Shown: in pieces, positions 30,863-34,701 of the stretch
Position numbering within the stretch: the first letter of the stretch is position 1
How the letters are laid out: each line of letters begins with the position of its first letter
DNA from: Catalinimonas alkaloidigena
Lineage (GTDB): Bacteria; Bacteroidota; Bacteroidia; Cytophagales; Flexibacteraceae
Assembly (NCBI RefSeq): GCF_900100765.1
Contig: NZ_FNFO01000003.1
Span: 781,348-845,347 of the forward strand
Direction: 5' to 3'
Length of the DNA stretch: 64,000 nucleotides
Program-made: the position numbers and the translations under genes
The notes under the pieces: model-generated
Told to the model about the DNA's origin: nothing
The model's input: only the letters and a program-made list of their open reading frames with translations
Databases searched by the model: none

Positions 30863-32098
30863 CTAAACGAGCCGGGCAATCGGAGAATCGGCCAGCATAC
30901 CCTGCAAAAGCTCGCGGCCCAGGTGCGGATTCAACGAGCCGTGGCGCAACAATGCCGCAAACTGCACACGACAGGCGTGTGGCCGGTCAGAGGCCGACAG
31001 GCGTGGGGTGCGGTGGTAACTACCGTGAAAATCAGACGCTTCGTTGGTTTGTGGATACAGCAGCACCGCGCAGTCGGCTCCGTAGTAGTGCGTGTACACA
31101 TACATCTGTTTCAGGTCGTCGTCGTCGGGCTGGCCCCGACGGGACGTTTTCCATTTGGTATCGAGCACCCACCGCTGGTCGCCCGCTTCGATTAGAATAT
31201 CGGGACGGATCGAACGGGTTTCCCAGAAAAGGCGGCTGCATTGCCGCGTGATGCGCAAAGCTTCGGTTTCGTGGGCCTTCAATTGCCGGTAGACGTACTC
31301 CTCAAACAGGCGATTCATGTCGAAGAGCAGCGCATGCACGTGGTCGGGTCCACCCTGGCCATCGACGCGGGTGTGCGTCAGAATCAGGCGTGCCAGCACC
31401 AAGGCCTGCCGGTATGTATCGTTCCAGGCGGTTTTGATCAACTGTTCTGCCCGCGCCGTTGCATCAGGCAGGGGAGTGGTGATCGGCCACTCTTGACGCA
31501 GCCGTCGCCGTTGTACCTGTAGCGAGGCGGCCAGTGGCCAGCTCGCCAGCGCTTCCAGGGCCTGATACAGCAACTGGTGGACCGGATGATCGATGGCGTA
31601 ACGGGTGTGGCGTGTGTAGCACCGTTCCTGGTGCAGGTAGTTTTGCCGAAGTTGCTGTCGCATCACCACCTTGCCCCGCCAGAAGGGTAAGTTTCCTTCT
31701 TCGGCCTGATAATGCCGGCGTAACCCTTGCGCCCACAACTGTTCCAGTATCGAAAGGTAATGCTGAGCGTATTGCTCCGGCAACGTCCCCGGCGTCGGTG
31801 CCTGCAAAGCCTCGGCCTGTTTAACGGGTAGCAGACGACAGGCCCGCAGCAAGTCGGGCAGGGCTTTGCGCCACAGTTCAGCGTGACCCTGGCGGCCGGT
31901 TTTAGGCAGAATTTCCAGTTGGAGGTCGCCGACCTGCACCGAGCCTACCCACGAATTCAGGCGTACCCCCTGGTAGACTGGCGTCAGAAAACGATGGCCC
32001 GAGCGTTCGGCATACCGGAGTAACGCCTGCACGTGTTTGGCCGTCACCGTCGGGCCGACCGACAAGGTATCGTGCTCAAAAACGGTGAGGCGTTGCAT
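30863..32098 (-). CDS. mcrC: McrC nuclease subunit of an McrBC-type restriction system
   Basis: McrC is the nuclease partner that docks on McrB rings and cuts modified foreign DNA. This 411-residue protein has the N-terminal McrC fold (WVGSVQVGDLQLEILPKTG), the central FWRGKVVMRQQLRQNYLHQ, HTRYAIDHPVHQLLYQAL, and a C-terminal PD-(D/E)xK site: RPDILIE with Asp300 and WVLDTKWK with Asp313 and Lys315. The nuclease residues are intact. It is downstream of the HTH gene by 48 bases and followed by treZ. Base composition seems a little less GC-rich in the intergenic sequence of this locus than in neighbouring genes. Confidence 0.92.
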   Translation of the reverse strand: MQRLTVFEHDTLSVGPTVTAKHVQALLRYAERSGHRFLTPVYQGVRLNSWVGSVQVGDLQLEILPKTGRQGHAELWRKALPDLLRACRLLPVKQAEALQAPTPGTLPEQYAQHYLSILEQLWAQGLRRHYQAEEGNLPFWRGKVVMRQQLRQNYLHQERCYTRHTRYAIDHPVHQLLYQALEALASWPLAASLQVQRRRLRQEWPITTPLPDATARAEQLIKTAWNDTYRQALVLARLILTHTRVDGQGGPDHVHALLFDMNRLFEEYVYRQLKAHETEALRITRQCSRLFWETRSIRPDILIEAGDQRWVLDTKWKTSRRGQPDDDDLKQMYVYTHYYGADCAVLLYPQTNEASDFHGSYHRTPRLSASDRPHACRVQFAALLRHGSLNPHLGRELLQGMLADSPIARLV

Positions 32099-32146
32099 CG
32101 GAGTCAGGAAAGAAGAAAAAAGAACGAAGGTACGAAATCGTGCGGC

Positions 32147-32641
32147 CTAATTGCCGAGCAGCCACCCGAAAAAGCCACCCGCTTTTGGCGCGGCCTGGGG
32201 GGTAACGGTCTCCGGCTCCGGAAGTTCCTGCACGGGTTGCTGGGGCATGGCGGGATATTGGTCACGCTTGGAGCCTTCCAAAAGGTAGGTCTGTTTTTCG
32301 ATGATGCGCAGGTGGCTCTCTTCCCGAAACTCGGCGGCTTCGCGGCGCTCACGTTCGATGTCTCGTTCGCGGCGAAGCATCTCATTTTCTTTCTTCAGCA
32401 TCAGGTACTCCATGTAATCCACGGAATGCTCCGGCTGTTCAACCTTGTTCACCTGAACGGTTTTGGGCGTGTCTACCGCTTTCAGGTCGGGATAGTGCCT
32501 TAACAGTTCGGACGTGTCGAAAAGCTTGTTCCCCCGTTCGTCCACATCAAACGAAATGCGCTTCTTATCAATGTCTTTGTAAAAGGTTGTACGGGAAATT
32601 CCGGCAGCCTTTGCTGCCTGCGTTACGTTCAGTTTGGCCAT
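32147..32641 (-). CDS. HTH/coiled-coil protein between mcrB and mcrC, plasmid exclusion/KfrA-like
   Basis: The 164-residue protein begins LNVTQAAKAAGISRTTFYKD, a helix-turn-helix like that of plasmid entry-exclusion-1 or KfrA-type proteins, followed by a wing-like segment DVDERGNKLFDTSEL. Residues about 77-125 are charged and helical (MLKKENEMLRRERDIERERR), a likely coiled coil. The tail is Pro/Gln-rich and ends GGFFGWLLGN, an aromatic end seen in this plasmid family. I infer a DNA-binding regulator or accessory part of the McrBC locus. TGTTCA repeats touch its start codon and recur in its own coding sequence, which fits autoregulation or DNA coating. It is not a standard McrBC component. Confidence 0.75.
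   Translation of the reverse strand: MAKLNVTQAAKAAGISRTTFYKDIDKKRISFDVDERGNKLFDTSELLRHYPDLKAVDTPKTVQVNKVEQPEHSVDYMEYLMLKKENEMLRRERDIERERREAAEFREESHLRIIEKQTYLLEGSKRDQYPAMPQQPVQELPEPETVTPQAAPKAGGFFGWLLGN
32436..32451. repeat. TGTTCA pair inside the HTH gene
   Basis: TGTTCA at 32436-32441 and 32446-32451 (10-bp period). The 16 bases are identical to those at 32642-32657 just upstream of the start codon. Confidence 0.6.
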
Positions 32642-32668
32642 TGTTCAACCTTGTTCATAGGGTGTTCA
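32642..32668. repeat. Triple TGTTCA repeat at the HTH gene start
   Basis: TGTTCA occurs at 32642-32647, 32652-32657 and 32663-32668, with spacing of 10 and 11 bases. The first copy directly abuts the ATG (minus strand, 32641). All lie on one helical face, as expected for an operator bound cooperatively. Confidence 0.65.
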
Positions 32669-32891
32669 ATCGTAGGGTTTATGTGTGGAACTCTGATGGA
32701 CAGAGGCCGGTGTGCGCTCAAAATCACGGGTATGGTGGAAAGGCTATTTCTTCCCGTTAAAGAGAAGTTTCTGCCTTTTTGGAAAGCCGTTGGAGGCTAA
32801 ACTACTGATAAATAACAAAATCTGCCTCGAAAATACGATTTCCGCGCTGAACACGCACAAGCGCAACGCGTCTGTACAAGCGACAAGGGGG

Positions 32892-32907
32892 TGTTCAAGT
32901 CTGTTCA
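32892..32907. repeat. TGTTCA pair near the mcrB end
   Basis: TGTTCA at 32892-32897 and 32902-32907, period 10, same orientation as the group at 32642-32668. Confidence 0.6.
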
Positions 32908-32991
32908 GGAAGGTGTGATGCTTGGCGTATATCTTGTGTAAAATCTGCCATTTTGGCGTCTATTAGCGTATTTTGTAATGATGTTGGTGTG

Positions 32992-34653
32992 TCAACGGCG
33001 GTAGATGCTGATCACGGCTTCCTGAAATGCTTCGCGCGACATGGCATCGGGCGATTTCAGGCGAAAGGGAGGCTGTTCGTCCCACGCGTACGGAGCAGTA
33101 AAGCGAGATTCAGCGAAAAAGTCGTCGGTGCTTTCAGAAGAGGCATCGCCTTCCGAAAAGTGGCGTCCCAGGACCAGCTCCAGTTGGTTGGGCGTTGCGA
33201 AAAAATACTCCTGCAACAGTGGCAACAGGCGGTCGCGGAAAAGCTGGCGTAAGGCTTCCCACGGATCGGGCGCAAACGCCAGTTCCATAAAATAAGCATG
33301 GCCCAGACAATGGTTCCGGTCCAGTAGGCGCTCGATGCGCCGGTTTAGGGTGAAAAGCAATGCTTTCAGGTCGACTTGGGGCGTTGTCAACGTGGTTTTC
33401 TTCGGGCCATACCGCGCTAAGGGTTCGGCGACTTGCGGCGGGGTGGTCTTGTTCTGGAGAAAGTCCTGCAAAGGAGCTAGTGCAAGGCCCTGCCGTGCCC
33501 GTTCAGCCAGAAGCCGTTCGGCAGCAAGTAGAGCGGGCTGCGGCGGCATTTCGACAAAGTGGAACCGCCGTCGCAGCGCCGTATCCAAGGCTTCGATGCT
33601 GCGGTCGGCTGTATTCATGGTACCGATCAGGTAGAGGTTGGGCGGCACGGTAAAGCGGTCTTTGGAATAGGGCAGCTCGACGCTCAGGGCTTCGGCGTTG
33701 CCACCGCGTTTGTCCGGCTCGATCAGGGTAATCAGTTCACCAAAAATACCCGCTACGTTGCCCCGGTTGATCTCGTCGATGATCAGCACGTAGCGGTCGG
33801 CCCACCGCCGGTCGAGTTCGGTCAGGGAAGCGTAGTCAAAATCGGCAATGGTGCGGCGCTTGGTGTCGTAGTCCGGATCACTCAGCAATTCTTCTTCGTA
33901 AAGCGCTTCTTTCTCCAACACGTACGAATCGAACGGTTGCTCGAACTCTTTCAGTGCACGAAACACCGCCCAGTAGACCGACGTGTTGCAACCGCCGATG
34001 GTCTCCAAAATATCGGTCGTGATGTTCTGAATTTCGTCTGGGTGCGCAAAACGCTCGTAAAGGCGGCGCAAGCGCCCTTTGGACACCACGTAGGTCCGGT
34101 TGCCTCGGGTGTGGCGCACCGACAGGTTGTTGTTGCCGGTGATGCCGGTCAGCATCACTTCCGAACCCGAACGCGTCGTGAAAATCGGTGGGGTCACGTG
34201 ACTTTGCATCCGCTGTTTCAGGTCCACCATAAAGTCGAAGTAGAGCGCGTTGAAGTCGCGGTTGGTGCGTCGCTCGCGCGTCGTAATGGTCCGGGCGGGG
34301 CGGTGCTGCGCCACGTACAGCGCGTAAGTGGCCTCGGTGCAGAGCTGTTTGAAAATGCCGTCTTCGACTTCGTACGTAAGACCGCCCTGTTCGCTGCGAC
34401 GGGGCCGCAGGCCTTCTACAAAATCTTCGTACCCAAACGATTGGTGGAACGTGACGAACGCGATCTGACCGGTTTCTTTGTAGCGCTCGAACTGCCGCCG
34501 CAGCCGTTCCCGCGCCTCAGGCGGGTACTGTTCCCGAAAACTTTGTTCCGAGAGCCCTTCTACCACGGCTACCGCACGGTCGATGGTGTGGTAGGTTTTG
34601 CCGGTGCCGGGCGGCCCGAAAAAAATCTGGTTGAGCGGATGAGAAGAGGCCAT
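32992..34653 (-). CDS. mcrB: McrB-type AAA+ NTPase with internal insertion
   Basis: McrB is the GTP-driven ring motor of McrBC. In this 553-residue protein Walker A (GPPGTGKT) is already at residues 13-20, so the usual N-terminal DNA-recognition domain is absent. The McrB segment FVTFHQSFGYEDFVEGLRPR (67-86) and EVEDGIFKQLC follow. Walker B and the McrB motif IIDEINRGNVAGIFGEL (291-307) come only after about 175 extra residues (111-287). The signature GTMNTADRSIEALDTALRRR (345-363) is intact. In E. coli McrB these two parts are nearly adjacent, so the insertion may hold the target-recognition function (inference). An inverted repeat precedes the gene at 34668-34701. Confidence 0.92.
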   Translation of the reverse strand: MASSHPLNQIFFGPPGTGKTYHTIDRAVAVVEGLSEQSFREQYPPEARERLRRQFERYKETGQIAFVTFHQSFGYEDFVEGLRPRRSEQGGLTYEVEDGIFKQLCTEATYALYVAQHRPARTITTRERRTNRDFNALYFDFMVDLKQRMQSHVTPPIFTTRSGSEVMLTGITGNNNLSVRHTRGNRTYVVSKGRLRRLYERFAHPDEIQNITTDILETIGGCNTSVYWAVFRALKEFEQPFDSYVLEKEALYEEELLSDPDYDTKRRTIADFDYASLTELDRRWADRYVLIIDEINRGNVAGIFGELITLIEPDKRGGNAEALSVELPYSKDRFTVPPNLYLIGTMNTADRSIEALDTALRRRFHFVEMPPQPALLAAERLLAERARQGLALAPLQDFLQNKTTPPQVAEPLARYGPKKTTLTTPQVDLKALLFTLNRRIERLLDRNHCLGHAYFMELAFAPDPWEALRQLFRDRLLPLLQEYFFATPNQLELVLGRHFSEGDASSESTDDFFAESRFTAPYAWDEQPPFRLKSPDAMSREAFQEAVISIYRR

Positions 34654-34667
34654 AGGGGAAAATTGAA

Positions 34668-34701
34668 CAGAGGCCTCCCTTTGCGAAAAAGAAGGCCTCT
34701 G
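34668..34701 (-). terminator. Hairpin between moeB-like gene and mcrB
   Basis: CAGAGGCCT (34668-34676) and AGGCCTCTG (34693-34701) form a 9-bp stem. On the minus strand it is followed by TTCAATTTT, a moderate T-rich tail, so it probably terminates the upstream MoeB-like transcript. Confidence 0.55.

Follow-up and report, generated by a model that had tools for sequence, protein, structure and literature searches.

The mcrB-mcrC pair of Catalinimonas alkaloidigena is split by a plasmid-type HTH gene with clustered TGAACA direct repeats

In Catalinimonas alkaloidigena, the mcrB and mcrC genes of a McrBC restriction system are separated by a gene for a small helix-turn-helix (HTH)/coiled-coil protein of a plasmid family. 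TGAACA direct repeats, grouped in three clusters, lie upstream of this gene and within it, a feature that the first reading of the DNA had missed. From the sequence we propose that the HTH protein may coat its own array and repress itself, and would thereby also limit mcrC. We rate the probability of this reading at about 0.45, somewhat below even odds. The family is already known by name; the TGAACA arrays at the HTH gene and their counterparts in relatives are new as judged from the open-access literature.

Results

The analyzed DNA, a stretch of 64,000 nucleotides referred to as the window, belongs to an 897-kb contig, and thus the locus is taken as chromosomal. The features of the locus are listed in Table 1. 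The HTH gene is intact, is present as a single copy in the genome, and ends exactly 48 bp ahead of the mcrC ATG. Its length, strand and position between mcrB and mcrC were as originally predicted. The mcrB stop codon is 350 bp from the HTH start codon, and mcrB and mcrC are 893 bp apart and not directly adjacent. The 350-bp gap has a GC content of 45% as compared to 57.5% for the window, and weak Bacteroidota-type promoter matches were found in it between clusters A and B. No terminator-like site was seen between the HTH gene and mcrC. Two further elements were noted upstream of mcrB. A lone TTGAACA heptamer (34663-34669, + strand), which is oriented opposite to the arrays, precedes the mcrB start codon by about 10 bp and could be due to chance. 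An inverted repeat, CAGAGGCCT/AGGCCTCTG (34668-34701), lies between a ThiF/MoeB-like gene and mcrB and is a possible terminator of the upstream gene.

Table 1. Genes and repeat clusters of the mcrBC locus (positions in the window)
Feature	Position	Strand	Description
mcrB	32992..34653	(-)	553 aa, AAA+ NTPase subunit; ORF and domain matches
Repeat cluster A	32892..32908	(-)	TGAACA pair with 10-bp spacing, between mcrB and the HTH gene
Repeat cluster B	32642..32669	(-)	three TGAACA, steps of 11 and 10 bp, abuts the HTH ATG
HTH/coiled-coil gene	32147..32641	(-)	164 aa; related to NF038291 and to 'entry exclusion protein 1'
Repeat cluster C	32436..32452	(-)	two TGAACA, 10 bp apart, in HTH linker codons
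mcrC	30863..32098	(-)	411 aa, nuclease subunit; 48 bp downstream of the HTH gene

On the gene strand, TGAACA is found at -27, -16 and -6 relative to the HTH gene, the last copy abutting the ATG, and again at +190 and +200 within the linker codons. Cluster C shares its 16-mer with cluster B. The window contains four phased TGAACA pairs, every one of them at the HTH locus. In the whole 7.1 Mb genome the paired pattern occurs five times, three of them at this locus, and the reversed pattern used as a control does not occur. Of the two remaining genomic pairs, one falls within a long ORF and the other in a gap between unrelated genes; both were taken as chance. With the motif defined from the upstream DNA only, the in-gene copies exceeded those of codon-permuted genes (p = 0.009); when synonymous codons were shuffled with the protein kept, the excess was borderline (p = 0.06).

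Arrays of other hexamers are present in relatives of the HTH gene. GCAACA repeats were found in plasmid genes of Dyadobacter, Rufibacter, Pontibacter and Shewanella, GGCACA repeats in the Pseudomonas and Halomonas members, TGAGAC in the Klebsiella member, GCTACA in the Sulfitobacter relative, and AATACA or TGAACA in Acinetobacter, one member of which has TGAACA at the gene start. The spacing is often 10-11 bp. The in-gene copies of the relatives lie near +166, +190 and +200, with further arrays at the ATG; in the Bacteroidota plasmids they lie at about 202/212, which equals 190/200 after a four-residue insertion in the linker. In more than a dozen relatives the in-gene copies of the upstream-defined motif exceed those of codon-permuted genes, and several stay significant in the synonymous-codon shuffle with the protein kept. 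A phased-hexamer score with p <= 0.005 was obtained for 13 of 31 members (window included) vs. 4 of 89 control genes; because about half of the relatives examined have no array, the relatives are not mutually independent, and hexamers in some groups were chosen after viewing the data, these counts are no formal family-wide test. The equivalent arrays at matching positions point to putative cognate binding sites of the HTH protein and its relatives, some of them inside coding sequence. Because the linker residues vary with the hexamer, the constraint appears to act on the DNA.

The best curated match of the HTH protein is NF038291 (residues 2-143, E = 4.1e-12). Its score of 46.8 bits is below the curated cut-off of 85 bits, and the protein is thus a homologue and not a formal member of NF038291. 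The same model was the best match for all ten relatives scanned, and most of those from outside Acinetobacter are also below the cut-off. The HTH half resembles Exc1 ('entry exclusion protein 1'), for example with 33-35% over residues 1-89 in tblastn. These matches confirm the entry-exclusion-like HTH that was first proposed. The label KfrA-like did not hold in its strict sense, as no KfrA_N was among the Pfam hits at E up to 1, and KfrA proper was ruled out on this ground. Also discarded were the PADLOC hits (mad1 with E = 0.0016, others weaker), which are short HTH or coil matches only, and the PHROG hits to terminase small subunits (E = 0.0067), which are HTH-type matches.

An AlphaFold model (8 input sequences, mean pLDDT 74.7, pTM 0.35) contains a confident winged HTH at residues 1-50, then a disordered linker, one long helix at residues 72-126 and, within the aromatic tail, a short helix at the C terminus. 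The linker encoded by the sites of cluster C is thus in a region predicted to be disordered. The nearest solved folds are those of Xis, BldC, MerR-type proteins, RacA and pSK1 Par, all with Z below 7, the winged HTH being a common fold. For Xis and BldC, Z was 6.8-6.9 (rmsd 2.0 over 52 residues), and the pSK1 Par and RacA structures 8csh and 5i44 gave Z of 5.3; the Par sequence profile gave E = 0.099.

Relatives of the HTH gene were found mainly on plasmids. A tblastn search of plasmids returned 1312 records with distant relatives. Most of these plasmids are mobilizable, and the relatives are frequently named 'entry exclusion protein 1'. Within the same order, seven of 390 genomes besides the genome itself have a match, and for five of the seven relatives the contig measures 6.4-19.9 kb and bears a Rep_3-type initiator gene that adjoins the relative or is one small ORF away. 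Three of these five contigs have matching ends, which indicates that they are circular. The description of the gene as plasmid-type is well supported by the small Rep_3-bearing contigs and by the more than 1000 plasmid records. At the present locus there is no Rep gene beside the HTH gene, whose neighbours on the 897-kb contig are mcrB and mcrC. A profile search of 395 genomes of the phylum recovered only the gene's own copy, and the gene is absent from 10 genomes of the same family. Scans of genome-contig and viral-contig collections with the single protein gave no match; an alignment query was needed, and it added Pontibacter, Shewanella, Sulfitobacter, Commensalibacter and two Burkholderiales loci. 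None of the relatives examined is beside mcrBC. One relative in another genome of the order is chromosomal (198 aa, L019:8816-9412) and lies about 2 kb from a tyrosine-recombinase-like ORF. Three Rep_3 initiator genes were observed elsewhere in the assembly of C. alkaloidigena, on contigs C14, C18 and C21, which are possibly plasmids; none is accompanied by the HTH gene.

The adjoining Rep genes of many relatives would fit a segregation or DNA-organizing element, in which the protein would resemble pSK1 Par, RacA or RocS in coating or tethering its array, and the locus would be a stray centromere-like site on the chromosome. The HTH, coiled coil and short aromatic tail agree with this reading, since pSK1 Par and RacA, which share the HTH and coiled-coil plan, are among the fold matches, and RocS has an HTH-coil-amphipathic tail plan (PMC11500499). 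However, the matched fold is a common one, and this reading and autorepression do not exclude each other. We regard a segregation element as unlikely.

The McrB and McrC genes on both sides are intact. McrC matches PF10117 in Pfam (E = 4.7e-53), and McrB has an AAA_5 match and a match to the McrB model PRK11331 (E = 5e-33). The Walker A motif of McrB is at residues 13-20 with no separate N-terminal DNA-binding domain ahead of it. A long stretch, at about residues 100-275, separates Walker A from the AAA_5-matching half. McrBC systems normally have no gene between mcrB and mcrC. McrC matches were found in 57 of 241 genomes of the order searched (C. alkaloidigena counted in the 57), and an HTH relative was present within about 1.5 kb at none of the 29 other mcrC loci of the order that were fetched. 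In the 14 related loci with a readable McrB just upstream, which are those covered by the adjacency count (12 loci of a more distant McrC type with undetectable McrB were left out), the McrB stop overlaps or touches the open mcrC frame and is at most 82 bp from the first mcrC ATG, with no gene between. For the closest McrC (43%), the McrB relative is on another contig of a fragmented assembly.

These results bear on the suggestion that the HTH protein is a third structural part of this McrBC or a factor that gives it specificity. Its position between the two genes, and an McrB that starts at Walker A without a DNA-binding domain of its own, could be taken in favour of this idea. However, the related McrB hits start at query residues 3-11, and the same layout is therefore found in mcrBC pairs lacking the HTH gene, while the HTH homologues live without mcrBC. 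Homologues away from mcrBC and related mcrBC pairs lacking the gene are also the outcome which the first reading of the DNA had named as refuting its view. A third component is thus very improbable, and it was dropped as the main reading. Because no relative is beside mcrBC, the relatives are mostly on small plasmids, and the other mcrC loci have no HTH relative, the HTH gene is, as judged from these comparisons, a single plasmid-type insertion and not a shared third part of McrBC.

Discussion

We propose that the HTH gene is a member of a plasmid protein family that strayed onto the chromosome, and that it entered the mcrBC operon along with its upstream region and cognate sites. Copies of the HTH protein would occupy neighbouring TGAACA repeats along one helix face, joined head to tail into an oligomer; the coiled coil could link the three clusters, and the binding would repress transcription of the HTH gene. 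Since mcrC follows on the same strand after 48 bp, and no terminator was seen before it, the autorepression loop would include mcrC and may hold McrC, the nuclease half, low or delayed independently of McrB. The gene, its family, the site arrays and the recurrence of such arrays in relatives are observed, whereas binding, autorepression, co-transcription with mcrC and a benefit to the defence system are all steps that we infer. The first two of these steps are drawn from the repeat arrays, the fold, and the parallels with BldC and RA3 KfrA. The arrays lend plausibility to the original view of the protein as a regulator or as an accessory that coats DNA, with the binding sites themselves remaining putative.

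The main rival to an autoregulator limiting mcrC is that the gene is a self-regulating passenger, a plasmid fragment which landed in the operon and persists by self-repression, its effect on mcrC being incidental or neutral. The HTH gene occurs inside mcrBC only once, its relatives are on plasmids without mcrBC, and the arrays would be needed for self-control on plasmids too, so that alone they imply no role in mcrBC. Because the occurrence is in a single genome, there is no conservation argument for such a role, and we make no claim that defence depends on the HTH gene. However, gene and sites are intact, and a gene on the operon strand 48 bp before mcrC can hardly avoid affecting it. We consider the passenger possible, if somewhat improbable.

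Several known systems resemble parts of the proposed autoregulation. NF038291 is rep_pAB02_ORF2, a 'plasmid replication DNA-binding protein' of Acinetobacter encoded downstream of repM. The HTH protein shares with it the HTH, coiled coil, aromatic tail and, in one Acinetobacter member, TGAACA repeats at the gene start, but differs in its sub-cut-off score, the lack of a Rep gene, and its chromosomal place inside mcrBC. Exc1 of ColE1-type and Rep plasmids has a similar HTH, and its Pseudomonas, Halomonas and Klebsiella members have phased repeats at the same gene positions; their hexamers differ, and an exclusion function is not implied for the HTH protein. KfrA of RA3 and R751 also has an N-terminal HTH and a coiled coil, but here the KfrA_N match is absent, the coil is much shorter, and repeats are also within the gene. 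RA3 KfrA is an autorepressor with an operator made of direct repeats (PMC7783346), and BldC molecules line up head to tail on direct repeats of 9 bp (PMC5859096). BldC/Xis-type winged-helix proteins are the closest winged-HTH folds to the model, whereas they have no coiled coil and the repeats of BldC are 9 bp as compared to 10-11 bp here.

In C-protein-controlled restriction operons, a gene for a DNA-binding protein is likewise just ahead of the nuclease gene. The usual C-protein fold differs from the MerR/Xis-like HTH seen here. As a type IV restriction system, the locus is like other McrBC in having McrB and McrC intact and unlike them in the gene in between.

Our searches of the open-access literature turned up neither a gene of this kind inside mcrBC nor in-gene repeat arrays. 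For a family that is present on more than 1000 plasmids and is annotated there as no more than 'entry exclusion' or 'replication DNA-binding', the proposal offers a function that can be tested, namely sequence-specific autoregulation through direct repeats which the gene itself carries. The variation among hexamers hints at a recognition-helix code, and our impression, gained from a few groups, is that hexamer and recognition helix are linked. A wider reading, which we offer tentatively as possible though less likely than not, is that this plasmid family writes its own sites into its gene, at the start codon and at fixed linker codons, with the hexamer tracking the recognition helix, and that here the device has been wired between mcrB and mcrC where it would meter the nuclease. 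If mcrC is under such control, an autoregulator of the plasmid maintenance type would have been adopted by a type IV restriction operon, and we know of no earlier case of this.

Restriction-like genes were also noted on some plasmids with HTH relatives. In E. coli plasmid p1493-3 (L079:7001-12423), the HTH relative is followed by a small ORF on the same strand, two 'site-specific DNA-methyltransferase' pieces and a helicase gene, a layout which resembles a type III restriction operon; no repeat array is present there. Other plasmids carry restriction/methyltransferase-like ORFs of 1093 aa (L014:1507-4788) and of 368 and 373 aa (L018:2450-4664).
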